Source: Geomonas sp. RF6 (GTDB lineage Bacteria; Desulfobacterota; Desulfuromonadia; Geobacterales; Geobacteraceae). Taken from it: 64,000 nt of DNA. This document shows positions 11,285 through 26,111 of the stretch, piece after piece. The first letter of the stretch is position 1, and each line of letters opens with the position of its first letter. Position numbers and translations under genes: made by a program. A model generated the notes under the pieces. It was not told the origin of the DNA. It did not search any database and worked only from the letters and a program-made list of their open reading frames with translations. The DNA lies in contig NZ_CP087999.1 in assembly GCF_021044625.1 (NCBI RefSeq), forward strand, positions 1,505,001 through 1,569,000, given 5' to 3'.

Positions 11285-14200
11285 ACATCCCGACCCGGTT
11301 CTATATGGGGATCCTCGCGGCCCTGACCGGGGACCCCAAAGAACAATGGCTGGCCAGCCGGCTGGAAGACGCCGGCTTCAGCTACGGCACCCGCTCCGCG
11401 GCAAACCTGCGCCTCCTGGCGGAGCGCCTTCCCGTGGAGCTCGTCCCGGATATCGCCTACTCCGCCCTGGCGGCGCCCCTTCCGGACATGGCGCTGAACG
11501 GACTGGAGCGGGTCTCCAATGCGGTCGACCCCGCGGAATTCCTCGAAGTCTGCTCGCGCCGCGTCCCCCTCACCCAGCTCCTCAACATCTGCGGTTCCTC
11601 TTCATTCCTCACCAACATCATCTGCCGCGACCGCGCCTACTTCAGCGCGCTCTTCATCAGGCGCGAGATCATGCACAGCCGCACCGAAGCCGAGATGCTC
11701 GATGCGCTCCGGGCGCTCGTCCCGGACGATCTTTCGTACAGCGACCTCCTCCCCCTCCTGCGCCGGTTCAAGTATTCCGAGATGCTGCGCATCGCGGCAC
11801 GCGACCTGAACGGCCTCGCTCCCCTGGAAGAGGTTACCGCCGAGCTCGCGGCGCTCGCCTCCGCGACGCTGCAGATTGCGTACGAAACGTCGCGCAAGGA
11901 ACTCGTGAAGGAGCACGGCGCTCCGCTCATGGTGACCGAAGAGGGGACCTCGGAGGCGGACCTTGTCGTCATCGGCATGGGAAAGCTCGGGGGGCGCGAG
12001 CTCAATTTCTCCTCCGACATCGACATCATCTACCTCTACTCTTCCGACAACGGAGAGACGGCAGGGGTGCCTGGAGCCCAGGGGACCCTCGCCGGGAAGA
12101 TCTCGTTGCACGCCTTCTTCGTGAAGCTCGGCGAGATGATCAGCCGGGCCATCTCCCAGGTCACCGGCGACGGCTTTGTCTTCAGGGTCGACCTCGGCCT
12201 GCGCCCGGAGGGGAAGAGCGGCGACCTCGCTTCGTCTCTGCGCTCCATGGAGATCTACTACGAGTCGTGGGGGCAGTCGTGGGAGCGCGCCGCCATGATA
12301 AAGGCGCGGCCGGTGGCGGGGTCCATGGCGCTTGGCGAGCAGTTCCTGCGCATGATCGAGCCGTTCATCTACCGGCGCTTCCTCGACTACAACCTCATCG
12401 AGGACATGATGGGGATGAAGCTGCGCATAAATGCCTCCCTCGCGCGACTGCAGGAAGGGGAGCTGAACGTAAAGCTCGGCCGCGGCGGGATCAGGGAGAT
12501 CGAATTTTTCGTACAGGCGCTGCAGCTCGTCTATGCGGGGCGCAACAAGAGCCTGAGGGTGAAGAACTCGCTGCAGGCGCTCCAGAAGCTCAAGGAGAGC
12601 GGCGTGGTGCGCGAGGCGGACTGCACCACCCTCACCGACGCCTACCGCTTCCTGCGCATGGTGGAGCATCGCATCCAGGTGGTCCAGGAGCGTCAGACGC
12701 ACCTCCTCCCGAAGAAGATGGACGAGCTACTCGCCCTCTCCCGGCGCTGCGGCTTTCTGCGGGGTGACGGCCTGCAGCGCTTCTCCATAACACTGGAGGA
12801 GCACAGGAGCGCCGTCTCAGCCATCTACGGCGACCTCTTCCACTCCCGGGACGAGAAGATCAAGGAAGAGGTGCTCCCGGAGGTCTTCTTCTTTTTCGAC
12901 CGGAACGCGGACCCCGAGCTCATCAAGGCGATGCTCGCGCAGCGCCGGTTCGAGCACCCGGAACCGGCATACCAGAACCTGCTTGTCCTGCGGGACGGTC
13001 CGCCCCACCAGAACCTCACCGCACAGGGGCATCGGACACGGGAGAAGATCGCTCCCCTCTTCCTGCAGGAGATCTTCGCATCCCCCGACCCGGACCTCGC
13101 CCTCTCCAACCTGGAACGCTTCCTTGTCGCCGTGCGCAGCCGGTCCTCGATCTACGCGCTCCTGGCCGAGAACCGGGACATCCTGAAGCTCCTCGTCCAG
13201 CTCTTCGGGATGTCGGAATTCCTTACCAAGATCTTCATCAGCCACCCCGAGCTCCTGGACAGCATGATCACCCGCAGCTACGCCTACTGCACGAAGGAGC
13301 GGGATGCGATGGCGGAGGAGCTTATCGCGGTGATTCGCCGTGCCGAGGATTTCGAGACGAAGCTCGACGCGCTGCGCCGCTACCGGCACGAGGAGTTTCT
13401 GCGCATCGGGATGAATGACATCAACGGGAAGATGGGGGAGGGAGAGGCCGGACATCAGCTGACCCATCTTGCGGAAGTATGCCTGTCGTGCGCGGTGGAC
13501 ATGGCACGGGTGGAGCTCTCCGCCTATGGGCGCCCCACCTTCTCTGACGAAAGCGGCATCACGCGGGAGGCGTCATTCGCGATCCTCGCCATGGGGAAGC
13601 TCGGGGGGCGCGAGCTCAACTACCACTCCGACCTCGACATCATCTACATCTACGACCACCAGGGGTTCACCGACGGGACGAGGCGGATAACGAACCACGA
13701 GTACTTCGCAAAGCTCGGCCAGAGGATCATCCTGATCCTCACCACCCAGACGCGCGAGGGGTATGTCTACAAGATCGACACCCGGCTGCGTCCCTCCGGA
13801 AATGCCGGCCCGCTCGTCACATCGCTGGAGTCGTTTCGCGACTACCACCGCACCGAGAGCCAGATATGGGAGCGCCAGGCGCTGACAAAGGCGCGGGTGG
13901 TGCTCGGCGGGGGCGTGCTGAAGGAGGAGATCGAGCAGGTCATCAGCCAGACCGTGTATGGCAGCGGCGCCGACGACTTCGTGCGCAGCGAGATTCACCG
14001 GCTGCGCATGCGGATGGAGGTGGAGCTCGCGAAGGAAAAGGCGGGGAGCTACAACATAAAGACCGGCCGCGGCGGCATGGTCGATGTGGAGTTCCTGGTG
14101 CAGTACCTGCAGCTGAAGCACGGCGTGGATGAGCCGACACTCAGAAGCTGCCACACCCTCACCGCCCTCTCCCACCTGAACCAGGCCGGCCTTCTTTCCT

Positions 14201-14466
14201 CTGCAGACTACCAGGCGCTCTCGGAGGGTTACCAGTTCCTGCGCCGGCTCGAGAACCGGATCCGGATCATCCACGACTACTCCATGAACGATCTGGGCGG
14301 CCCTCCCCGCTACCTGAACAAGCTCGCACTGCGCCTCGGCTACAGCGCGACGCTGCAGAACCCGGGTGAGGCTCTGATCTCGGATTACACCCGCACGACT
14401 GCGGGGATACGGGACGTGTACGAGAGGATCCTCGGTGGCGCCGCGACGGAAGCGCCCCTCTCCTGA
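11281..14466 (+). CDS. glnE: Glutamine synthetase adenylyltransferase/deadenylase
   Basis: A bifunctional nitrogen-control enzyme of 1061 residues that adds and removes AMP on glutamine synthetase. It carries two nucleotidyltransferase domains, each with the [20 protein letters not shown]-type motif: one at about residue 225 (deadenylase half) and one at about 766 ([19 protein letters not shown], adenylylation half). Each is followed by a helical regulatory domain. The start is a GTG that overlaps the mtnA stop by four bases. Family length is about 950-1070, so it is complete. Confidence 0.97.
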
Positions 14467-14510
14467 GCTCTGCGGGAGGGTTCCGGAATAACCTGCAACA
14501 GGTGGCAGCA

Positions 14511-14620
14511 CGTCCCTCCCCTTTCAAGGGGGAGGACAGGAGGGGGATGGGGTTCATCCCGCGCTCGCCAACTTCTACCCCATCCCCACCCTGTCCCTCC
14601 CCTTGAAAGGGAGGGGACGC
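14511..14620. repeat. Two family A repeats facing each other
   Basis: Copies at 14511-14556 (CGTCCCTCCCCTTTCAAGGG...) and 14576-14620 (...CTGTCCCTCCCCTTGAAAGG) are in opposite orientation and 19 bases apart, so the whole stretch could fold as one long hairpin. They make up much of the 340-base gap after glnE and may serve as its transcription end. Confidence 0.75.
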
Positions 14621-14657
14621 CTGAGCGCCTGCTCTTGTAAAAATCACGGGTTTGCCC

Positions 14658-14775
14658 GCGGGGTCACGCTGTCGAGAGTTCGACTCGCACCGGGTCACCC
14701 CTTGGGACAAACCTGATCTGTACCTCACAGCATCACATGCGCGGGGTCACGCTGTCGATACCGACAGTTCACCCC
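14658..14775. repeat. 18-bp direct repeat with tRNA-end-like sequence
   Basis: GCGGGGTCACGCTGTCGA occurs at 14658-14675 and again, identical, at 14741-14758. Each copy opens a small hairpin: GTCGA/TCGAC at 14671-14684, and CTGTCG/CGACAG at 14752-14767. The first copy continues GAGAGTTCGACTCGCACC, which resembles the T-arm and 3' end of a tRNA. No matching 5' half exists nearby, so at most this is a tRNA remnant or an attachment-site scar. Confidence 0.5.
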
Positions 14776-14806
14776 GCTTTTCATTGGCTTACCAGGAGGA
14801 AAATGA

Positions 14807-15235
14807 ATGGAAGTTCGCGTCTACTACGAGGACACCGACGCCGGGGGGGTTGTCTACCACGCCAACTATCTGCGCTTTTTCGAGCGCGGCAGGACCGAGT
14901 TTTTGAGGGAGAGGGGGTTCGACGTCGCCGCGATGCACAATGCCGGCACCATCTTCGCGATCGTCTCCATGAAGATCGACTACCGCTCCCCGGCCCGCCT
15001 CGGGGACCTTCTCGAGATCGAGACGGAGATCGGAGAAGTGAAGAACAGCTCCTTTATTGCAAAGCAAAGGGTGCTGCGCAGGGATGGGGGGACGGTTCTT
15101 TGCGAGGCGGAGGTGACGCTGGCGTGCATAGGAGAGACTCTGCGGGCGAAGAGGCTCCCGGCAGACGTGAGGGACATGCTGAAAAAAGGTTGTCCCGGAG
15201 ATGAACCCAGCATTTCTGTGCCCTCGGAGAAGTAG
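14807..15235 (+). CDS. Acyl-CoA thioesterase, YbgC/4-hydroxybenzoyl-CoA thioesterase family
   Basis: A 142-residue hot-dog fold thioesterase. The family motif YYEDTDAGGVVYHANYLRFF with the catalytic Asp (about residue 13) is at the N terminus, followed by FERGRTEFLRE. Members are found with the Tol-Pal system or act on short acyl-CoAs. No tol genes are adjacent here, so the substrate is open. AGGAGG lies 7 bases before the ATG. The gene ends in an intergenic repeat and then a strong bidirectional terminator shared with lspA. Confidence 0.88.
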   Translation: MEVRVYYEDTDAGGVVYHANYLRFFERGRTEFLRERGFDVAAMHNAGTIFAIVSMKIDYRSPARLGDLLEIETEIGEVKNSSFIAKQRVLRRDGGTVLCEAEVTLACIGETLRAKRLPADVRDMLKKGCPGDEPSISVPSEK

Positions 15236-15325
15236 GGGCCGCATACGTTCCCCCCTTTGTGAAGGGGGGAACGCGAGTTCAAGTGCAGCGGTTCGTGGAA
15301 ACGGACTCCACGTTCCACGCAAATT
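15236..15325. repeat. Dispersed repeat, family B copy 2
   Basis: TACGTTCCCCCCTTTGTGAA then GGGGGGAACGCGAG, followed by GTGCAGCGGTTCGTGGAAACG, matches the family B unit at 5727-5835 but is shorter and more diverged. Confidence 0.65.
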
Positions 15326-15338
15326 CAGCGATAAGCGC

Positions 15339-15372
15339 ACAAAAGGCTGAAGGTTACCCTTCAGCCTTTTGT
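15339..15372. terminator. Bidirectional terminator shared by the thioesterase gene and lspA
   Basis: A 15-bp perfect stem, ACAAAAGGCTGAAGG/CCTTCAGCCTTTTGT, with loop TTAC. On the plus strand it is followed by TTTTCTCTTTT. It is unusual in that the lspA stop codon (complement of 15361-15363) and last codons form part of the stem. Confidence 0.88.
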
Positions 15373-15846
15373 TTTTCTCTTTTCCTCGAAGTACATGTCG
15401 AGCGCCAGGAGGAAGACCCCGACGCAGATCGCGGAGTCGGCGATATTGAAGGCGGGCCAGTGGTGCTCGTACCAGTGGGCGTCGAGGAAGTCGATCACCT
15501 CGCCGAGGCGGATCCTGTCGATGAGGTTGCCGAGCGCGCCCGAGAAGATCAGCGAGAGCGACACGGCGGCGAGCGTCTGGTCGGGACGCAACTTCCTGAT
15601 GGCGATGCAGATCACCACCACCGCTATCAGGGAGATCAGTATGAAGAAGGGGAGCCGGTACGCGGAATTGGCGAGAATCCCGAACGCCGCCCCCTTGTTC
15701 CGCACGTAGCTGATGTTGAAGAAGTTGCGGATGACGGTGATGGTGCTGTGCAGCGGCATCGCCTGGTCGATGAAGACCTTCGTGAGCTGGTCCAGGAAGA
15801 GCACCAGTGCGCTTACCCCTGCCAGTATCTGATATCGTTTGTCCAT
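15361..15846 (-). CDS. lspA: Lipoprotein signal peptidase
   Basis: Inner-membrane aspartyl peptidase (signal peptidase II) that cleaves prolipoproteins before the lipidated Cys. It has 161 residues and four hydrophobic segments. Conserved FLDQLTK (about residue 18), NKGAAFGI, GALGNLIDRIRLGEVIDFLD (first catalytic Asp) and AFNIADSAICVG (second catalytic Asp) are all present. The start is ATG at 15846, giving MDKRYQILAGV. It lies downstream of ileS on the same strand, the common ileS-lspA pair, with a G/C-rich hairpin between them. Many lipoproteins in this window are its likely clients. Confidence 0.96.
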   Translation of the reverse strand: MDKRYQILAGVSALVLFLDQLTKVFIDQAMPLHSTITVIRNFFNISYVRNKGAAFGILANSAYRLPFFILISLIAVVVICIAIRKLRPDQTLAAVSLSLIFSGALGNLIDRIRLGEVIDFLDAHWYEHHWPAFNIADSAICVGVFLLALDMYFEEKRKTKG

Positions 15847-15910
15847 TCGTAAGTATCCCCGGCGTATGTTGTGGAGGAAGCTGTCGAAGCCAAGCCTTAC
15901 GGACCCCGTC

Positions 15911-15934
15911 CCCCCTCCCCTCGCGGGGAGGGGG
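15911..15934. repeat. Hairpin between ileS and lspA
   Basis: CCCCTCCCC and GGGGAGGGG pair across loop TCGC. It sits in the 122-base gap between ileS and lspA, with no T run. It could modulate ileS/lspA mRNA ratios. It resembles the family A stem but lacks the rest of that repeat. Confidence 0.5.
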
Positions 15935-15968
15935 CATGAGGTTGCCCCGGCGAGCGGGTGGTGCGTTC

Positions 15969-18743
15969 TTATTCGACGGCGGAGATGCACTTCGGGCAGA
16001 TCGTCGGATGCTCCGCATCGCTGCCGATCTTCTCGTCGTAGCACCAGCAGCGCTCGCATTTTGCTCCCGGAGCCGCGCTGACCGCGATCTCCAGCGGATC
16101 CCCCGCGTCCCCGGTGTACACCTCTCCCACCAGCGTGTCGGCCAGTTCCACCTTGGAAACGATGAAGATCTCCTTCAGCTCCGCCTGAACCTGGCGCAGC
16201 AGCTCGCCGGTAGCGCCAGCCGCCTTGATGGCGACCGCGGCGTCGAGGGAGTGGCCGATCGTCTTCTGCACTCGGGCCAGTTCCAGCGCCTTGGAAACTT
16301 CTGCGCGCACCTTCATGACCTTCTCGTAGCGCTCTGCCAGCGTCGCGTCCTTGTGCCCCTCGATGAGCGGCGGGAAGGCCGCGAGGTGCACGCTCGTCTC
16401 GCGCGGGCCCGGCATCACCTTCCACACCTCTTCGGCGGTGAAGGAGAGGACCGGCGCGGTCATGCGCACCAGCGCGTCCAGGATGCTGTACATGACGGTC
16501 TGGGCGCTCCTGCGCTGCACGGAGTCCGCCTTGCTCGTGTAGACGCGGTCCTTCAGGATGTCGAGGTAGAAGGCACTCATCTCCACGGTGCAGAAGCCGT
16601 TCACCGCGTGGTAGAGGATGTGGAACTCGCAGTCGTTGTAGCAGCCGAGCACCTTCTCCTTCAGGAGCTCCAGCTGGTGCAGCGCCCAGCGGTCGAGGTC
16701 CGGCATCTCCGCGTACGGGACGGTGTGCACGGCGGGGTCGAAGTCGTGGATGTTGCCGAGGATGTAGCGGCAGGTGTTGCGGATCCTGCGGTACGCCTCG
16801 GAGAGCCTGGTCAGGATCTCCTGGGAGATCCTCAGGTCGTCGCGGTAGTCCTGGGCGGCCACCCAGAGGCGCAGCACGTCGGCGCCGAACTTCTTCACCA
16901 CGTCCTCGGGGGCGACCACGTTGCCGAGCGACTTGCTCATCTTGCGCCCCGAGCCGTCCATGACGAAGCCGTGGGTGAGGACGTTCTTGTACGGCGCGCG
17001 CCCGCGGGTGCCGACGGAGGCAAGAAGGGACGAGTGGAACCAGCCGCGGTGCTGGTCGCTCCCCTCGAGGTACATGTCGGCGGGGGAGGAAAGGTACGGA
17101 CGGTGCTCGAGAACAGCGGCGTGAGACACGCCGGAGTCGAACCAGACGTCGAGGATGTCCGTTTCCTTGTCGAACTCGGTCTTGCCGCAGGCGGCGCAGG
17201 AGGTCCCTTCCGGGAGGAAACGGGAGGCTTCCCAGTCGTACCAGATATCCGAGCCGTGCTCCTCGAAGAGGTCGGCGACACGGTGCATGACCTCGCCGGT
17301 GGCGAGCACCTCCCCGCAGCTCTTGCAGTAGAAGGCGGTGATCGGCACCCCCCACGAGCGCTGGCGCGACACGCACCAGTCGGGGCGGTTTTCGATCATA
17401 CCGTAGATGCGCTCCTTCCCCCACTTGGGGATCCAGTTGACGCTGTTTATGGCGTCGAGCGCCTTGCCGCGCAGGTCGTTCTTCTCCATGGAGATGAACC
17501 ACTGCTCCGTGGCGCGGAAGATGATCGGCTTTTTGCAGCGCCAGCAGTGCGGGTAGGAGTGGCTGATCTCGGCGCTGGCGAGGAGCGCGCCTACCTCCGT
17601 AAGTTTCTCGATGACGTTCTTGTTCGCCTCGAAGACGAACTGGCCGCCGAAGAACTCGATGTTTTCGAAGAACTTGCCGCGGTTGTCGACCGGGTTGTAG
17701 ATGTCGAGCCCTTCCTTGAGGCCGAGCTCGTAGTCCTCCTGGCCGTGGCCGGGGGCGGTGTGCACGCAGCCAGTACCGGCGTCGAGGGTGACGTGCTCAC
17801 CGAGCAGGATGACGGAGTCGCGGTCGTAGAAGGGGTGCTTCGCGAACTTACGCTCCAGCGCGGTCGCCTTGAAGGTCGCCTTCACCTCCCCTTCCGCGCC
17901 GATCTGCTTTAAAAAGCTCTCCTTCAGCCCGTCGGCAACGATGAGAAGCTCGCCGTTCACCTCCAGCGCCACGTAGTCGAGTTCCGGGTGCAGCGCCACC
18001 GCGAGGTTCGCGGGGAGGGTCCAGGGGGTCGTGGTCCAGATCACCACGGAGCCGTGGCGGCCGGCGAGGGAGGGATCGAGGAAGCCGAGATCCTCCTTCA
18101 CCTGGAACTTCACGAAAACGGACGGGGATTTGTGGTCTGCGTACTCGACTTCCGCCTCCGCAAGGGCGGTGCCGCAGGAGGAGCACCAGTGCACCGGCTT
18201 CTTCCCCTTGTACAGCCCGCCGTTGGCGGCGAAGCGGGCGAGCTCGCGGGCGGTGATCCCCTCGTAGCTCTCGCGCATGGTGAGGTACGGGTCGTCCCAC
18301 TCCCCGAAGATCCCCAGGCGCTCGAACTCGGCGCGCTGGATCGCCACGAACTTCGCGGCATACTCGCGGCAGAGCTTGCGCATCTCCAGCTTGGAGATCT
18401 CGTGCTTCTTGGAGCCGAGGTTTTTCTCCACCTGGAGCTCGATCGGCAGGCCGTGGCAGTCCCACCCCGGAACGTAGGGGGCGTCAAAGCCGCTCATTCT
18501 CTTGCTCTTGAGGATGATGTCCTTCAGGATCTTGTTGAGGGCGTGGCCGATGTGGATGTGGCCGTTGGCGTACGGGGGACCGTCGTGCAGGACGTAGCGC
18601 GGCTTCTCCGCACCCGCCTCCACCATCTTCCGGTAGAGGGCCATCTCTTCCCACCCCTTGATGATCTCGGGCTCGCGCTGGGGCAGGTTACCCTTCATGG
18701 GAAAGGAAGTGACGGGGAGATTGAGTGTGTCCTTGTAGTCCAT
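15969..18743 (-). CDS. ileS: Isoleucyl-tRNA synthetase
   Basis: Class I synthetase of 924 residues that charges tRNA(Ile) and edits valine. It shows [16 protein letters not shown] (HIGH motif, about residue 58), [11 protein letters not shown] (KMSKS, about 600), the CP1 editing domain between them, and a C-terminal zinc site [12 protein letters not shown]...CPKC. The start is the ATG at 18743 ([10 protein letters not shown]). The open frame extends further upstream, but that part covers the terminator-containing leader. The gene has its own sigma70-like promoter about 200 bases upstream. Confidence 0.97.
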
Positions 18744-18936
18744 GTAGCGGCCTCCGCTGTATCTGTTGGGCTCACCTCGGAGGAGGTAAAGCCGTAAAAA
18801 CGCCCCGAGGGGCGTCTTTTCCGCGTGTCTTTTCTTGCTGCCACCCCTGATAGGTTCGGTGTAGGATGGGCTCAGACGCACCCTTTCCGGCGATACCGGG
18901 GGATGGTTCTGGCGTCAGCAAAGCTTCGAAAAAAGC
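18744..18936 (-). promoter_or_regulatory. ileS leader with intrinsic terminator, T-box-like
   Basis: On the minus strand a stem ACGCCC/GGGCGT with loop CTCG (18800-18815) is followed by TTTTT, about 50 bases before the ileS start codon, so ileS appears to be attenuated. Just upstream is AGGGGTGGCA, then ACGCGGAAAAGACGCCCCT, which recalls the T-box element (AGGGTGGNACCGCG) with an insertion. Its AGGGG can pair with CCCCT of the terminator stem, as an antiterminator would. Further upstream a hairpin CCGG-TATCG-CCGG exposes an ATC (Ile) triplet. The attenuator is well supported. The T-box identity is a hypothesis. Confidence 0.45.
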
Positions 18937-18941
18937 GCTTA

Positions 18942-18970
18942 AAACTACTAGAAAGACCGCTAAATGTCAA
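18942..18970 (-). promoter_or_regulatory. Candidate sigma70 promoter of ileS
   Basis: On the minus strand TTGACA (18970-18965), a 17-base spacer, then TAGTTT (18947-18942). The -35 is perfect and the -10 is weak. It lies upstream of the terminator-bearing leader. Confidence 0.5.
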
Positions 18971-18987
18971 GAATAAAGGGATTTCTG

Positions 18988-19017
18988 TTGTCCAGCAGGT
19001 CAGGCTCATGTTATACA
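18988..19017 (+). promoter_or_regulatory. Candidate promoter of kup
   Basis: TTGTCC at 18988-18993, an 18-base spacer and TATACA at 19012-19017. Transcription would begin near 19024, giving a short leader to the ATG at 19051. It is divergent from the ileS promoter. Confidence 0.4.
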
Positions 19018-19050
19018 GGGCGCTATTGATTTGCAAGGGGCAGAGGGTTT

Positions 19051-20868
19051 ATGACCAAACACACTGAATCGTACTGGGGCGGTGTCATCAAATCGATGGG
19101 CCTCGTCTTTGGTGACATCGGCACAAGCCCGATTTACACACTCTCGGTAATCTTCGCCATCACCAAGCCGACGCATGACAACGTCTTCGGCATCTTGTCC
19201 CTCATCGTCTGGACCCTCATTATCCTCGTCACGGTAGAGTACGCCTGGCTGGCCATGAGCCTCGGGCGCAAAGGCGAAGGGGGGACGATCGTCCTGAAGG
19301 AGATACTGACCCACATTCTGAAGGGTGGACGGTATCTCGCCTTCGTCGGCGTCCTCTCTTTTATAGGGGTATCTCTTCTGCTGGGGGACGGCGTCATTAC
19401 CCCCGCCATCAGTATCCTCTCCGCCGTCGAGGGCCTCGTGCTGATACCGGCCTGTTCCGGTGTGCCGCAGGGGGTGCTCATCTTCATCGCGGCGATTATC
19501 GCCATCACCCTCTTCATCTTCCAGTCGAAGGGGACCGACAAGGTCGCCCGCGCCTTCGGGCCGCTCATGGTGATCTGGTTCGTGGCGCTGACCGTAAGTG
19601 GCCTCATCTCCATTGCCGGTGTTCCCAACATCCTGGAGGCGGTGAGCCCCTGGTACGCCGTAAAATTCTTCCTCGACAACGGCGTCGCCGGCTTCTTCGT
19701 GCTCTCGGAGGTAATCCTTTGCGCAACGGGGGGGGAGGCGCTCTACGCCGACATGGGGCACCTCGGGCGAAAGCCGATCATCCGCGCGTGGTACTACGTC
19801 TTCTTCGCCCTGGTCATCAACTACCTGGGACAGGGGGCATTCCTTCTGCGGCACCCCGAGGCGAAAAACATCCTCTTTTCCATGGTGCAGTGGGAGTCGC
19901 CGTTTTTGTACGTCCCCTTCCTGATACTGACGATCCTCGCCACCATCATCGCCTCGCAGGCGCTGATCAGCGGGGTCTTCTCCATCGTATACCAGGGGAT
20001 TACCACCCGCATCATGCCCCTTATGAAGGTGGACTACACCTCCAGCCACCTCAAGAGCCAGATCTACATCGGCTCCGTCAACTGGTTACTGATGGTCCTC
20101 GTCATCTTCATCATGCTCCTGTTCAAGAAGTCCGAGAACCTCGCCGCGGCGTACGGTCTCGCGGTCACCGGCACGATGGTGATAACCGGTATTATGATGA
20201 CCTGGATCTTTTCCCGCACCACGAAGAGGTGGAAGGTACCCATCGCGGTGCTGGTCACCATTGTGGACATCATCTTTCTAACCGCAAACCTGAACAAGCT
20301 CCCCCACGGCGGCTACTGGTCCCTCATCCTCGCCGGCGTCCCCTTTGGCACCATCCTCGTCTGGACTCGCGGGCAGCGCGCACTCTACCGGGCCCTGGCC
20401 CCGCTCGATCTGGACACTTTCCTCGTCTCCTACGAGCAGATCTACGCCAAGGGGCGGAACATTCCGGGGACCGGTCTCTTCTTTACCAGGGAGTACCACA
20501 TCATCCCGCCGTACGTCATCCACTGCACCGTGCGCAGCAACATCGTGTACGAGAGAAACGTGTTCATTTCCATCGACCGCACCGACGAGCCGTTCGGCGT
20601 GACTTCGAAGGTAATTCCGAACATTGGAACCGGTCTCGATGCCTTCCAGATCAGTGCGGGGTACATGGAGGTGCTGGACATCGAGAAGCTCTTGAAGAAG
20701 CATGGGATAGCGGAGAAGGTTATCTTCTACGGAGTCGAGGACATCACCACCAGCAACCCGGTGTGGAAAATATTCTCGGTCATCAAGAAGCTCTCTCCGA
20801 ACTTCGTGCAGTTCAACAAGTTGCCCGCCAGCAAGCTGCAGGGGGTTGTAACGAGGGTGGAGATGTAG
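19051..20868 (+). CDS. kup: KUP-family potassium uptake protein
   Basis: Inner-membrane K+/H+ symporter with 605 residues, close to the usual 620. The N terminus SMGLVFGDIGTSPIYTLSVIF is the KUP signature. About twelve hydrophobic segments run to residue 430 (for example LGDGVITPAISILSAVEGL), followed by a soluble C-terminal domain with VPNIGTGLDAFQISAGYMEV-like sequence. It stands alone, with ileS divergent and a terminator immediately after. It is probably a low-affinity constitutive K+ importer. Confidence 0.95.
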   Translation: MTKHTESYWGGVIKSMGLVFGDIGTSPIYTLSVIFAITKPTHDNVFGILSLIVWTLIILVTVEYAWLAMSLGRKGEGGTIVLKEILTHILKGGRYLAFVGVLSFIGVSLLLGDGVITPAISILSAVEGLVLIPACSGVPQGVLIFIAAIIAITLFIFQSKGTDKVARAFGPLMVIWFVALTVSGLISIAGVPNILEAVSPWYAVKFFLDNGVAGFFVLSEVILCATGGEALYADMGHLGRKPIIRAWYYVFFALVINYLGQGAFLLRHPEAKNILFSMVQWESPFLYVPFLILTILATIIASQALISGVFSIVYQGITTRIMPLMKVDYTSSHLKSQIYIGSVNWLLMVLVIFIMLLFKKSENLAAAYGLAVTGTMVITGIMMTWIFSRTTKRWKVPIAVLVTIVDIIFLTANLNKLPHGGYWSLILAGVPFGTILVWTRGQRALYRALAPLDLDTFLVSYEQIYAKGRNIPGTGLFFTREYHIIPPYVIHCTVRSNIVYERNVFISIDRTDEPFGVTSKVIPNIGTGLDAFQISAGYMEVLDIEKLLKKHGIAEKVIFYGVEDITTSNPVWKIFSVIKKLSPNFVQFNKLPASKLQGVVTRVEM

Positions 20869-20915
20869 GGATGAAGCAATGGGCTCTATCAGGGGGCCGT
20901 CAACCGCAAAGACGC

Positions 20916-20950
20916 AAAGAAGGCCGGGCACCGAATGCCCGGCCTTCTTT
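20916..20950. terminator. Bidirectional terminator between kup and the cytochrome operon
   Basis: A perfect 15-bp stem AAAGAAGGCCGGGCA/TGCCCGGCCTTCTTT with loop CCGAA. T-rich on both strands. It separates convergent kup (+) and the multihaem cytochrome gene (-). Confidence 0.9.
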
Positions 20951-20977
20951 CGTTCCGGCTTGATACCTTTCATTTCG

Positions 20978-23968
20978 CTACCACGACTGTACTCCGGGGC
21001 CGTCATGGCACCCGCTGACGATGAGGCTGCCGTGGGAGCAGGAGGCGCTCGACCCGCGCGGCGTATTGACGGTGATGCCGGTGGTGGTCTGCACCGTGTT
21101 CGTCTGCGTCGTCCCGCTCAGCCTGTTCTTGTTCGGCCCGTGGTTCACCCCCGCCCCCGAGCCGGCCTGGGTGCCGAAGCCGGTGTTGCTGACGCCGGGG
21201 TGGCACGTGCCGCACACCGATCCGTGGTGCGTCGGATGCCTGCGCTTTATGTTCGGGAAAAGAGTTCCGGTCGGTGCGGCGAGGTTTCCCGTCCCCCCGG
21301 TGCCGTGGCACGACCTGCAGTTCCCTTTCCCGTTCCCAGCCAGGAGCGGGTTTGCCACGGTATGGCAGGACATGCAGTCGGGAGCTCCGGTTGTGGCGTC
21401 CTTCGCCAGCGGGTACTGGTTCGCGGCAGCGCTTCCCCCCACACCGGTGTTGTGGCAGCCGCCGTTTGACTTCAGACAGGTGGGGGCGGCGACCGCGTTG
21501 TGGGTGAAGTAGGGCACCACATGCGCGCCTGTTGCTTCTATGGCGCCGTTGACGTGTTTCGTCCGGTCGGTGAAGCCGGTTCCGGCAGCATTGACATGCG
21601 GGTGGCAGGTTATGCAGTTTACCGGGGTCATCCCGGCGTGGGTGGCGTTGGCTGGCGGATATCCGTGGCACTTCGTGCAGTCGCTCGCGGCGACACCGGT
21701 CAGGAAGGGGCTCCCCCACGACGGCGCGAGGACCGCCGACGCCGGTTTGTCCATCTCGGGGCCATTGCCATGGCAGTACGTGTTGCTGCAGCTCCGCCCC
21801 GCCGCGGTGTATGCCGGCGTGAGCCCGCCGCTGGAAGCGAGCGCGCCGAAGACGACCGGGTTGGCCAGGACGGTGGCGGCACGAGCCCGGGAGCGGTTCA
21901 GGTGGTCGACCGTGCCGACTCCGAGGCCGCTGTGGCACTCGGCGCAGACGGTCGACTCTCCGGCCGGGAGATTGATGGCGCTGTGCGAGCCGTGAACCGC
22001 CGCGACGTCAGGATAGCTTGTCCCGCCCGGGGGGGTGGCATGGCAGGAGGTGCAGCCGGTCGCTACCGCGGTCGGATCGGCGATATGGCAGGTGAGACAG
22101 CGCGGGATCGTCTTCCCTCCGGTGAGGGGGACGTCCGCCCCGACCTGGTGACATCCCAGGCAATACCCGAAGTTGCCGCGCGCCGTGGCGTTGTGGTTGT
22201 TGTACGGCACCGCGTGCGGCGCATTTCCCGGCCCGTTGGAGTGACAGGTCCTTGCCTGCCCGAGGGCGTTCGTGAAGGTGGTGGAGAAGCAGCTTGGCGC
22301 TGCGGGGAGAGGCGCGGTGCGCCCCTGGCTCACATCGTGGCAAACCGCGCAGGCCTTGGCGATAGAGCCGGCCGTGCGGTGCGAGAAGGCGCCGCTCCCC
22401 TGCCAGTCGGTGGGGTGTGCCTTCGCAAAGGTGTGGCAGCTGGAGCAGGCGGCGGTCCTCGTGCCGTCCGCGAGGGTGGTCCCGTCGAAGGCGGTGGTTC
22501 CTTTGGTGCCGTGGCAGGCCTGGCAAACGGTGAGATCCTTCTTCGCCTCCCCGCCATGCAGGGACGGCGGTATCGTTGCGGAGGGTGCGAACGGTAGCTG
22601 ATGGAAGTGGCACAGGGTGTTGTTGAAGCATCCCGGCGCCGCAGCGACCGTAGTTGGCGGCTTTATGGTGGAGTTGGCCCCTGCGGTGTGACACTGGGCG
22701 CAGACTGTCACGTTTCGCTGGTCCGCTGTCGCGTGGGAAGCCCCGCCGGTGGAGGAGAACCACGGCTTGCGCGGGTGCGGAGCCAGAACGGCGCTGCCGT
22801 GGCAGGCGGAGTTATTGAGGCAGCTCGTCGCCGAGCCGTTCGCGAAGGAGGTCCCGTGGCATTGCTGGCAGTAGGCGAAACCGCTGGCCGAGCCGGGCGC
22901 CTTCTTCGCCTGTGCTCCATGCTGGGCCGCTGCGCCCCAGCCGGCGGGGTGGCCGATCTGGGCATGACAGAGGGAGTTGTCGAAGCACCCGCTGGCGCCG
23001 ACCGGATCCCCCGCCTGAGGCGTGCGGGAGGAGTTGGCACCCGCCGCGTGGCACAGGGCGCACTGTCCCGCGTTGCTCGTATCGGTGGTGCTATGGGAAG
23101 GCCCGCCGCTGGTGGAGAGCCACGGCGTGGCTGGATGCGGCGCGCTTATTCCGGAGCCGTGGCACGAGGCATCGTTGAAGCACCCCTGCTGTGCAGAGCC
23201 GCCGCTGTAATCGGAGCCATGACACGGCGTGCAGGAGGAAAGCCCGGTGCTCCCGCCGGCGACGGCGTTGGCGGCTGCGCCATGCCGGGCGGCGGCGGAC
23301 CATCCTGTCGGGTGTCCTTCCACTCCATGACAGAGGGTGTTGTTGAAGCACCCCGGCTCTGTCCCTGCCGGCGCCGGGTCGGAAGGCTTGCGGGACGAGT
23401 TCGCCCCGCCGGTATGGCAGACGGCGCAGGCTCTCGCGTTGCTCGCGTCCGCCGAGCTGTGGGTGCGCCCCCCGATGGAGGAGCGCCACGGCTTCTGGGA
23501 ATGGGGCGCCGCGACTTGCGCTCCGTGGCACCCGGCGGTGTTGAGACAGGACCTCCTGGAGATCCCCCCGCCAAGATCGGCCCCATGGCAGGCCTGGCAA
23601 TGGGGAAGGCCGGTTATCCCCGCGGCACGTGCATTGGCGGCAGCGCCGTGGGCGTCAGGATCGGCCCATCCGGCGGGATGTCCCGAGGGTCCCCCGGCAT
23701 GACAGCCTACTCCGTTCCGGTCGGCGCTGAAGCAGCTCACCTTGCTGATCCCCCCGGCGTAGTCGCTGCCGTGGCACTCCTTGCACGCATTGGGGTCGTC
23801 GAGATATGCCGCGGGGTGGGCACCCCCGGAAACCGGGACAACCCACCCTGCCTGGTGCCGGCCCGAAACGTCGATCGAGCTGCTGCTTCCTCCCCTGCTG
23901 CATCCGGAAAGCCCCGCCACGAGAAGAACGGCGGCACCATACAGAAGTTTTTTCATGTCACGCCTCAT
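20978..23968 (-). CDS. Large multihaem c-type cytochrome lipoprotein (about 19 CxxCH motifs)
   Basis: A 996-residue exported lipoprotein. The signal peptide MRRDMKKLLYGAAVLLVAGL ends in SGC, the lipidation site. I count 19 CxxCH haem sites, one CxxxxCH (CSNTYCH) and six CX5CH sites (for example CFNNTLCH, CLNNSACH). In the first 450 residues CxxCH and CX5CH alternate in repeats of about 70 residues. The C-terminal part CSNTYCHGNGP...CTKCHG matches the Geobacter CxxxxCH...CxxCH domain. AAGGAG stands 6 bases before ATG 23968. It is the last gene of an operon with a 5-haem lipoprotein and an outer-membrane barrel. Probable role: surface electron transfer to extracellular acceptors. Confidence 0.88.
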   Translation of the reverse strand: MRRDMKKLLYGAAVLLVAGLSGCSRGGSSSSIDVSGRHQAGWVVPVSGGAHPAAYLDDPNACKECHGSDYAGGISKVSCFSADRNGVGCHAGGPSGHPAGWADPDAHGAAANARAAGITGLPHCQACHGADLGGGISRRSCLNTAGCHGAQVAAPHSQKPWRSSIGGRTHSSADASNARACAVCHTGGANSSRKPSDPAPAGTEPGCFNNTLCHGVEGHPTGWSAAARHGAAANAVAGGSTGLSSCTPCHGSDYSGGSAQQGCFNDASCHGSGISAPHPATPWLSTSGGPSHSTTDTSNAGQCALCHAAGANSSRTPQAGDPVGASGCFDNSLCHAQIGHPAGWGAAAQHGAQAKKAPGSASGFAYCQQCHGTSFANGSATSCLNNSACHGSAVLAPHPRKPWFSSTGGASHATADQRNVTVCAQCHTAGANSTIKPPTTVAAAPGCFNNTLCHFHQLPFAPSATIPPSLHGGEAKKDLTVCQACHGTKGTTAFDGTTLADGTRTAACSSCHTFAKAHPTDWQGSGAFSHRTAGSIAKACAVCHDVSQGRTAPLPAAPSCFSTTFTNALGQARTCHSNGPGNAPHAVPYNNHNATARGNFGYCLGCHQVGADVPLTGGKTIPRCLTCHIADPTAVATGCTSCHATPPGGTSYPDVAAVHGSHSAINLPAGESTVCAECHSGLGVGTVDHLNRSRARAATVLANPVVFGALASSGGLTPAYTAAGRSCSNTYCHGNGPEMDKPASAVLAPSWGSPFLTGVAASDCTKCHGYPPANATHAGMTPVNCITCHPHVNAAGTGFTDRTKHVNGAIEATGAHVVPYFTHNAVAAPTCLKSNGGCHNTGVGGSAAANQYPLAKDATTGAPDCMSCHTVANPLLAGNGKGNCRSCHGTGGTGNLAAPTGTLFPNIKRRHPTHHGSVCGTCHPGVSNTGFGTQAGSGAGVNHGPNKNRLSGTTQTNTVQTTTGITVNTPRGSSASCSHGSLIVSGCHDGPGVQSW

Positions 23969-23993: not shown

Positions 23994-24470
23994 TCAGCGG
24001 TGGCAGCTGATGCATCTCTCGTTGTTCCCCCTGCCGTGGCAGCGGTAGCAGCTCGCGGGATCTATCTTCCCCTCGATTTTGTGAATGGTGAGGTAATCGC
24101 CGCGGTGCGGCATCTCGCGGTCCGGGCGGTTGCCATACTTCAGCGAGGGCTTCATCTCCACCTGGTTTGTGTGGCAGTCTGCGCAAAATGACCTCTTGTG
24201 GCAGCTGGCGCAGAGTCGGTCGTCACTCTGGGCGTAGAAGCGGTGATTCCTGACAAAGACCGCAGTATGGCTGAATGCGGAGAAGGATTTCAGGCTCCCC
24301 TTCTGCTGATCCTCGTGGCATTCCAGGCAATTCACCTGCTGCCCCACCGCGAGCGACTCGGGATGGGACTCCGGGAGGGACGGGAGCGCCGCCATCCGGG
24401 CACACCCGGCAAGAAGAAAGAGCGCTCCGGCGAGGATCAGGGGAAAGAGGCGTCTGGATATCGTTGTCAT
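23994..24470 (-). CDS. Five-haem c-type cytochrome lipoprotein
   Basis: A 158-residue lipoprotein: signal MTTISRRLFPLILAGALFLL then LAGC. It has five CxxCH motifs (CLECH, CASCH, CADCH, CYRCH, CISCH) and several extra His that can serve as distal ligands, such as FSHTAVFVRNHRF. The start codon overlaps the stop of the barrel gene upstream (ATGA), and the large cytochrome follows after 25 bases. In porin-cytochrome conduits of Geobacter a small cytochrome sits on the periplasmic side of, or within, the barrel. I infer that role here. Confidence 0.87.
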   Translation of the reverse strand: MTTISRRLFPLILAGALFLLAGCARMAALPSLPESHPESLAVGQQVNCLECHEDQQKGSLKSFSAFSHTAVFVRNHRFYAQSDDRLCASCHKRSFCADCHTNQVEMKPSLKYGNRPDREMPHRGDYLTIHKIEGKIDPASCYRCHGRGNNERCISCHR

Positions 24471-25774
24471 TTGGTCCCTCCTTTGCCGTCGTAGGCCATG
24501 TTGTAGGTCAGGCGCACGACCGCGCGCACCTCGTCGCTGAACTGCGGGTTGCTGCCGTAGGCGACGTCACCTGAGAGTGCCAGTGCCCGCGTCAGGTGAT
24601 ATCCCCCCGAAGCCGTCCCTTCCCAGGCGCTTTTTCTGCCGAAGATCTTCTCCTTGAAAAGGTAGGCGGTGAGGTCGAGGGCGCCGAAATAGGAGGGTGT
24701 ATCGGTCATCAGGTAGCCGCGCACGGCGTGGTAGGAGGGGGACTGCGTCCCGCTGATGGCAAAGGACTGGTCGGCGCGCAGGTAGTGGTAGCCCCCCCCT
24801 GCGCGCACTCTGTTGTCGGCAAAGGAGAATTTCGCCTCCCCGCCGAAGCGGTCTGCTGTGCCGAGCTCACGCTTGTAGCGCCGGTACTCCGCGAAGAGCT
24901 CCCCCTTCCTGATCCGATAGGAGGCGCTTGCGCCGATGGAGCGCGACCGGTCGGCGGGGTCGAGGGCGGCGCCGGAGAAGAGCGCCCAGGTATAGAAATA
25001 GCTGCGATCCCGCTCTTCCTCGTAGCGCGCCGACACGGTTAGTTCCTGCACCGGCCGCACGTTGAGGAGATAGCTGTGCTCGGCGACCTGGCTCGTCTCG
25101 GTGTTGTAGCTGCTATGGCCGGTCAGCTCGACGGCACTGTGCGGGGCGAGCCACAGGTCACCTCCCACCAGGCGGTGGTTCCCGCCGGCATGTGTGGCGA
25201 GGCTCGGGGCCGCGCTCTCATAGACGCCGGAGAGTCCCACCTCCACTACCCCGCGGTACCGGTAGCTGACGCGGCCGCCGAAGAGGCCATCCCCCTTGCC
25301 GTCGCTCTCCTCCCCCGGCAGGTTGACGGTATGGACCGTCGCCCCGCCAAAGGCCGAGATTGCCAGACCGAAGGGAAGGTCGCTGCGGGCGCCGACCCCG
25401 TCAACCTGCTCGTTCACGATCCCCTCGTGCACGAAGAAGCGCCCCAGCCTGAGCTCGGCATTCGCATCTCGGGGCCGGTACTGCAGGTACCCGTAGGTGA
25501 CGCTCCCCCCCCCTTGGTCGGTGTTGTAGCTCTTTTCCGCCAGATCGAGCCGCCCCCAGCCGTAGAAGTGGAGGGAGAGGCTGGAGCCGGAGAGCCGGTC
25601 CAGGTCGAGCCCCAGGAACTGGGTGAGGGGCGCCACGTCCTTCTTCGAACCCGCAGCGTCACGCTGCTCCAGCCGCAGGATTGTCGTTGACTCGACGGAG
25701 GTGAGCGCCCAGGAGGATGCGGGGATGGTCAATAGAGTGGAGAGAGGAAGCAGGCGACAAAGAAAGACTTTCAT
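24467..25774 (-). CDS. Outer-membrane beta-barrel protein of a porin-cytochrome conduit
   Basis: A 435-residue exported protein with no haem motif. Signal peptide MKVFLCRLLPLSTLLTIPAS then SWA. The mature part is made of alternating polar/hydrophobic strands with many Tyr, Gly and Arg (SLHFYGWGRLDLAEKSY, VSYRYRGVVEVGLSGVYES, TVSARYEEERDRSYFYTWAL) and ends AVVRLTYNM. That is the pattern of a large barrel. The start is ATG 25774 with AGGAG 5 bases upstream. It is first in a three-gene operon, translationally coupled to the 5-haem cytochrome. The arrangement resembles the OmbB/Ext-type conduits of Geobacter, though I cannot assign it to one. Confidence 0.8.
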   Translation of the reverse strand: MKVFLCRLLPLSTLLTIPASSWALTSVESTTILRLEQRDAAGSKKDVAPLTQFLGLDLDRLSGSSLSLHFYGWGRLDLAEKSYNTDQGGGSVTYGYLQYRPRDANAELRLGRFFVHEGIVNEQVDGVGARSDLPFGLAISAFGGATVHTVNLPGEESDGKGDGLFGGRVSYRYRGVVEVGLSGVYESAAPSLATHAGGNHRLVGGDLWLAPHSAVELTGHSSYNTETSQVAEHSYLLNVRPVQELTVSARYEEERDRSYFYTWALFSGAALDPADRSRSIGASASYRIRKGELFAEYRRYKRELGTADRFGGEAKFSFADNRVRAGGGYHYLRADQSFAISGTQSPSYHAVRGYLMTDTPSYFGALDLTAYLFKEKIFGRKSAWEGTASGGYHLTRALALSGDVAYGSNPQFSDEVRAVVRLTYNMAYDGKGGTK

Positions 25775-26111
25775 GGGAGCTCCTGTTCTGGACCAAGGCC
25801 ATGAGATGTGAGGCAAAAAAGGTTGTCTGCGCACAGCAACATGCGAACCGGCTCATTGCCCGTCGCGGCAGGAAGCAGACTATTTGCCCGAGGCACCGGG
25901 AGGCTGTCGATCTCGCTGCAGGAGTAAAGTCTTTTCAGACCAGTGGAAATTAAGTGCTGGGGAGGAGGGCTTCAGGCCCGAAAGGAGGGTGTTCTTAAAG
26001 GAAAATAATATTGCAAAGAGATGCCGTCTCCGGCACCAGCGGATGTACCCCTGTACGATTTGTCGCTTCCCGTTGCAATCATCGACAGGGGGCGAGCTTA
26101 TGTCGAGCGAC
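25775..26111. other. Intergenic region upstream of the porin-cytochrome operon
   Basis: It should hold the promoter for the minus-strand operon. I see no convincing -35/-10 pair, no GEMM riboswitch core and no properly spaced sigma54 site (a GG...GC pair near 26020-26035 is one base short). No gene is apparent. Confidence 0.5.

Follow-up and report, generated by a model that had tools for sequence, protein, structure and literature searches.

The cytochrome studied here is encoded in a stretch of 64,000 nucleotides from Geomonas sp. RF6 (contig NZ_CP087999.1, positions 1,505,001 to 1,569,000), which we refer to as the window. It is the product of the third gene of an operon on the minus strand, the three genes of which were delimited from their open reading frames (ORFs). 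The first gene (24467..25774) encodes a porin-like protein, so named from gene order; its ORF opens at 25834, and the likely start is MKVFLC at 25774. The second gene (23994..24470) encodes a lipoprotein of 158 residues with five CX2CH motifs, and its counterparts also stand beside the third gene in relatives. The third gene (20978..23968), with an ATG start and AAGGAG six bases upstream of it, encodes a multihaem lipoprotein cytochrome of 996 residues with 30 CXnCH motifs, where n is the number of residues between the two Cys. Comparison with related proteins suggests that the CX5CH sites of this cytochrome most likely bind haem, for a total of about 30 haems rather than 19-20 or 26.

Motif inventory and repeat layout

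A full count of Cys and His in the cytochrome gave 61 Cys. One is Cys23, the last residue of LSGC (residues 20-23), which fits the lipobox consensus. The other 60 all fall within the 30 CXnCH motifs: 19 CX2CH, 6 CX5CH, 2 CX9CH, and one each of CX4CH, CX6CH and CX14CH. Outside the motifs there are 34 His. When the residues after Cys23 were shuffled in 20,000 rounds, with the Cys and His of the CX2CH motifs held fixed, no round left zero unpaired Cys (the minimum was 14) and none reached 30 CH (the maximum was 27).

The six CX5CH strings quoted in the initial annotation were all present, at residues 141-148 to 447-454. They are, on the minus strand, site 1, CLNTAGCH (residues 141-148; 23525..23548); site 2, CFNNTLCH (residues 207-214; 23327..23350); site 3, CFNDASCH (residues 263-270; 23159..23182); site 4, CFDNSLCH (residues 328-335; 22964..22987); site 5, CLNNSACH (residues 383-390; 22799..22822); and site 6, CFNNTLCH (residues 447-454; 22607..22630). 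In an alignment of ten sequences, composed of the window protein and L031-L039, both Cys and the His were invariant in all ten at each site. The same annotation had put the total at about 26 haems if the six sites bind haem, and had otherwise read them as spaced structural Cys pairs. The comparison of sites given below favours its haem option, while its total falls short by missing five other non-canonical motifs. These are a CX9CH (residues 79-90; 23699..23734), a CX14CH (residues 560-576; 22241..22291) with spacing identical to that of the OmcZ haem-1 site (PMC9473688; papers are cited here by PMC number), a CX4CH (residues 727-733; 21770..21790), a CX6CH (residues 831-839; 21452..21478) and a second CX9CH (residues 977-988; 21005..21040), all on the minus strand.

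Residues 61-602 (22163..23788, minus strand) form nine di-motif repeats of about 60 residues each, U1-U9. In each unit a CxxCH is followed by a second motif and then, usually, by two His. The spacing of the second motif is X9 in U1, X5 in U2-U7, X2 in U8 and X14 in U9; canonical and non-canonical spacings thus stand side by side at one repeat position in one protein. One CxxCH plus one CX5CH per repeat, as had been described for about the first 450 residues, therefore holds for U2-U7, while the first unit has CX9CH. The context of the second motif alternates: even units resemble CX5CH..APH..PW..H, and odd units resemble CFNNTLCH..GHP.GW..HG. At sites 1, 3 and 5 the spacer varies freely in sequence, but it is almost constant at sites 2 and 6 and partly so at site 4. 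In the odd-unit motif (window positions 23327-23350, 22964-22987 and 22607-22630, and relatives) the length is constant and the letters stay near FNNTL; the even-unit motif varies in both.

Further along the protein, the CX4CH lies in a single copy of the GSu_C4xC__C2xCH domain, which passed both curated cut-offs (TIGR01904 at residues 712-777, 44.1 bits against a cut-off of 27; PF09698 at residues 726-768, 27 bits against 21.7). This bears out the earlier remark that CX4CH is known in a Geobacter domain. The two models leave the CX5CH repeat region uncovered, and the remaining Pfam models above cut-off on the cytochrome were general c7 and class III cytochrome only.

Distal-type His and spacing interchange among relatives

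Residues 1-640 of the cytochrome hold 20 motifs, and in this region 20 non-motif His were invariant in all ten aligned sequences. The sole other non-motif His, H123, was not invariant. Across residues 24-640, invariance was found for 20/21 non-motif His, compared with 143/535 of the other non-motif residues. The match of 20 motifs to 20 invariant His gives one distal-type ligand per motif only when haem is assigned to the CX5CH sites as well. Thus each CX5CH site would have a distal-type His available to it, by a count that pairs totals and not a particular His with a particular haem.

A similar relation was found across the third genes of related operons. By regression, the number of non-motif His rose by 1.11 (standard error 0.10) per CX2CH and by 1.16 (standard error 0.18) per non-canonical motif. 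The set comprised 40 of 44 third genes, ranging from 4 to 37 CXnCH, and in both genes with 37 the count includes one CX1CH; left out were L034 (masked letters), L036 (cut by a contig end), and L004 with its identical copy L039 (readable only as far as a frame break). In L038 and L032 the third gene had been enlarged to 37 motifs by an inserted block of extra CX2CH and CX4CH.

We further compared the spacing at equivalent sites. In shorter relatives in which the context is recognisable, the unit-2 site, CX5CH in the window protein, reads CX2CH in L002, L005 and L006, CX6CH in L030 and CX17CH in L029. The second site of U8 is CX4CH in L033 and CX2CH in the other nine aligned sequences, and the U4 site (site 3) is CX3CH in L003, which lies outside the alignment. 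A repeat profile searched against 103 loci found 146 domains in 52 proteins, and at the even-unit position the spacing was CX5CH in 56, CX2CH in 30, CX9CH in 22, CX6CH in 5, CX3CH and CX4CH in 2 each, and CX11CH and CX12CH in 1 each. The 22 CX9CH sit in 22 proteins and are mostly first-unit-like, in a context closer to the odd phase. Among matches that reach the two downstream columns, both columns were His in 53/54 with CX5CH, 27/27 with CX2CH, 7/7 with CX9CH, 2/2 with CX6CH, 1/1 with CX4CH, 1/1 with CX12CH and 1/2 with CX3CH.

For odd-type context, the window protein itself carries X9 in U1 and X14 in U9. A looser odd-context pattern gave 67 matches, of which 36 were X5, 28 X9, one X10, one X14 and one X2, the last (L009) by eye a chance match. 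At the first-unit site of the six-motif third genes, where the context is like that of the odd phase, CX2CH was found in 12/17, CX5CH in 3/17 and CX11CH in 2/17. A tree built without the spacer from these 17 genes, out of 20 third genes shorter than 310 residues (L023, with 4 motifs, and L048 and L059, of other architecture, were left out), placed two spacing changes, with the CX5CH and CX11CH branches lying among CX2CH rows. The tree was rooted at its midpoint; branch support was 84/92 for the CX5CH branch, which was drawn open, and 88/85 for the CX11CH branch.

Haem at CX5CH is favoured over empty Cys because equivalent sites may carry either CX5CH or CX2CH, there is one invariant distal-type His per motif, and the two motif classes bring similar numbers of extra His.

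Probable haem occupancy of the CX5CH sites

Taken as a whole, these features are very probably best explained by an outermost conduit cytochrome of the Pcc/Ext type, with about 30 bis-histidine c-type haems and haem at the CX5CH sites. In such a conduit the porin-like protein and the five-haem lipoprotein cytochrome would carry electrons across the outer membrane to the lipid-anchored 996-residue cytochrome, in which a chain of about 30 haems would lead toward extracellular acceptors. The N-terminal part would be a series of two-haem repeats with the second haem at a CXnCH of variable inter-Cys loop, and CX5CH would be one tolerated loop length, the haem being held covalently and ligated as at CX2CH. 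Standard motif counting would then probably understate the length of this electron wire.

Several results weigh against this reading. The odd-unit position, i.e., the CFNNTLCH type of sites 2, 4 and 6, was CX5CH in 98/98 repeats, and the exchange with CX2CH observed for these three sites is accordingly confined to the first unit of six-motif relatives. In the His regression the two predictors have a correlation of 0.94 and the proteins are related to one another, which makes it support and not proof. L028 (772-3777), a long relative of 1001 residues with the same CX5CH repeats, has neither a porin nor a five-haem gene in the available stretch, which indicates no fixed link between the repeats and the operon. 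The porin-like protein had no Pfam match above cut-off and no NCBIfam match, and a sequence search of the PDB returned for it two antibody chains at an expect value (E) of 0.3. The window cytochrome matched no PDB chain by sequence at E up to 10 (the presence of the OmcZ chains in that set was not checked separately), and the best PDB match of the repeat profile was cytochrome c6 at E 0.065. AlphaFold2 models of residues 1-662 with 10 sequences and of a 139-residue repeat with 30 repeat rows had mean pLDDT (predicted local distance difference test) values of 32 and 43, respectively, and neither gave usable geometry; as models, they appear neither to back nor to oppose haem at CX5CH.

The alternative that fares best is that the CX5CH pairs are empty structural Cys, as disulphides or free thiols, in a protein of about 19-24 haems. 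Haem at CX5CH is unproven in the papers cited here, and the 2014 porin-cytochrome survey, in the part available, left binding at CX>4CH to be decided (PMC4245776). The constancy of the odd-unit phase (98/98) is also what a distinct structural element might show. However, empty pairs leave unexplained why the His that follows the second Cys never varies, why motifs and invariant non-motif His match 20:20, and why sites interchange with CX2CH while both downstream His are retained; empty alternate sites would, moreover, be expected to interrupt the haem chain. We therefore regard this alternative as improbable. Haem at some CX5CH sites only, for example at sites 1, 3 and 5 but not at sites 2, 4 and 6 of the CFNNTLCH phase, would fit the free spacers of the former and the fixed or partly fixed spacers of the latter, and also the finding that within the profile CX2CH interchanges in the even phase alone. 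Against it, one invariant distal-type His per motif was found in both phases, the first-unit site of six-motif relatives reads X2, X5 or X11 in an odd-phase-like context, and the U9 site of the same odd phase has the OmcZ-like X14; partial occupancy is accordingly judged quite improbable as well. Another metal at the non-canonical sites, e.g., mononuclear Zn, Cu or Fe held by Cys, Cys and His with a distal His, would find ligands enough in the two Cys and two His of each site, yet at equivalent positions these sites are exchanged for standard haem motifs and no Pfam or NCBIfam match pointed to another metal, so that it is scarcely credible.

If the CX5CH sites do bear haem, any count restricted to CX2CH to CX4CH, as in the available text of PMC10734462 and PMC9961858, underestimates the number of haems. 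Such counting finds 20/30 motifs in the window cytochrome, and a third of its haems would be missed. Since relatives have CX2CH where the window protein has CX5CH, the question of haem at CX>4CH becomes a sharp prediction at the level of peptides. The loops themselves may matter for function: PMC11208441 cites work in which removal of the OmcZ CX14CH loop suppressed the reduction of soluble acceptors. A bolder and tentative proposal, which we hold to be rather less probable than its opposite, is that the Cys-Cys loop of the second haem in each repeat is evolvable, such that loops of 2 to 17 residues, lying over a conserved haem chain, have been swapped at a single position without loss of haem and a general haem lyase accepts them all. 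In Wolinella there are distinct lyases for CXXCH, CX15CH and CXXCK (PMC12285233). The window genome has one ResB match, to a full ResB, with an adjacent CcsA gene, and three CcsA-type genes in all (L061-L063); the second adjoins a gene that by eye resembles hemA, and the third adjoins a gene for a 226-residue protein without Pfam or NCBIfam match. In the window genome these spacings may be served by a general lyase or by a dedicated long-motif one.

Operon recurrence and comparison with known conduits

The operon recurs among relatives. In a tblastn search of 38 loci, all three genes were found in 26/38; L034 lacked the porin at a contig edge, and 11, including L028, showed neither partner in the short available stretch. 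In a set of 48 places, picked through similarity to the operon proteins of the window, a cytochrome gene directly followed the five-haem gene in 44, and this third gene was extremely variable. Absence of a third cytochrome meant that none started within about 260 bases, and in L056 and L057 a large cytochrome does lie downstream, beyond that limit. The weak five-haem match in L056 (6705-10922) is an 8-motif protein between a 403-residue protein and a 752-residue cytochrome, an arrangement like ombB-omaB-omcB by published gene order. The window genome has a second operon of porin-like protein, five-haem lipoprotein and cytochrome (L064, 6247-9779; G000:C1, about 984-988 kb), in which the third gene encodes 571 residues with 16 motifs.

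The best PDB match of the five-haem lipoprotein by sequence was NapB, at E 0.047. Upstream of the porin-like gene in the window lies a gene for a 248-residue protein with CxxC pairs near its start, which is not a cytochrome. The number of sites found by promoter and terminator scans was close to that in shuffled sequence. In window positions 13573-23600, on both strands, many long antisense ORFs lie over clear genes and by eye look like artefacts of G+C-rich coding sequence.

Within the order, the repeat profile matched 63/141 genomes at E 0.001, a figure that includes weak matches. Of 395 genomes sampled from the phylum it matched 15 at E 1e-8, and ten of the 15 belong to one other family. 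Nine of the phylum places were examined. Eight yielded an ORF with non-canonical motifs, and the ninth, L103, no more than a stretch of 80 residues with CX2CH. Three of the sequences were read whole: L095 carries CX5CH in both kinds of unit, while in L098 and L099 the odd units carry CX5CH and the even units mostly CX2CH.

The initial annotation had known of no CX5CH in this pattern. In openly licensed literature, where absence is not absence in print, CX5CH named as such with a cytochrome gave no match, and haem at this motif is unproven in the papers cited. As a candidate haem motif, however, it is already covered by range notations: PMC12545173 takes CX2-5CH as haem motifs, in its available text without a test of CX5CH, and PMC4245776 includes CX3-15CH, as an atypical class, among the motifs it counts in the outer-membrane cytochromes of Pcc clusters.

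Among known systems, the Ext conduits of Geobacter sulfurreducens share the gene order of porin-like protein, five-haem lipoprotein and cytochrome, a likeness that was drawn by description, order and anchoring only. The clusters extABCD and extEFG encode a porin-like protein, a five-haem lipoprotein (ExtC or ExtF) and one more cytochrome, which is either the 12-haem lipoprotein ExtD or ExtG (GSU2724), predicted to be periplasmic, and extBCD also exists without a nearby extA (PMC6148476). The outermost cytochrome is often replaced (PMC6148476) and highly variable (PMC6148476, PMC4245776). The small lipoprotein with five CX2CH, encoded between the porin-like and terminal cytochrome genes, fits the Pcc/Ext layout, and with a lipobox Cys23 and 30 CXnCH the window cytochrome would be its terminal lipoprotein, with a predicted surface location. 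ExtB-ExtC-ExtD is the best fit by order and anchoring, since ExtD is a lipoprotein, as the window cytochrome appears to be from its lipobox, and ExtG is predicted to be periplasmic; ExtD has 12 haems, in contrast to the 30 motifs in di-motif repeats found here.

The Pcc cytochromes GSU_2724, Gura_1837, Geob_1686, GM18_3461 and IALB_1837 resemble the window protein in having CX3-15CH in an outer-membrane cytochrome. They have 1 to 15 typical motifs compared with 19 here, and the available text singles out neither CX5CH nor alternating repeats (PMC4245776). OmcZ of Geobacter sulfurreducens shares the CX14CH site, at which its haem 1 is bound, with thioether bonds and two His resolved by cryo-electron microscopy for all eight haems (PMC9473688); OmcZ itself has 8 haems and forms filaments. 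MmcA of Methanosarcina acetivorans likewise mixes canonical and stretched motifs, and mass spectrometry found haem at all seven, including the CX3CH and CX4CH peptides (PMC11024163). It is an archaeal Rnf cytochrome, and its stretched motifs are CX3CH and CX4CH only. The window protein is thus most likely of a known kind, the Pcc/Ext terminal cytochrome; new are the long-loop haem sites that we propose within its two-haem repeats.

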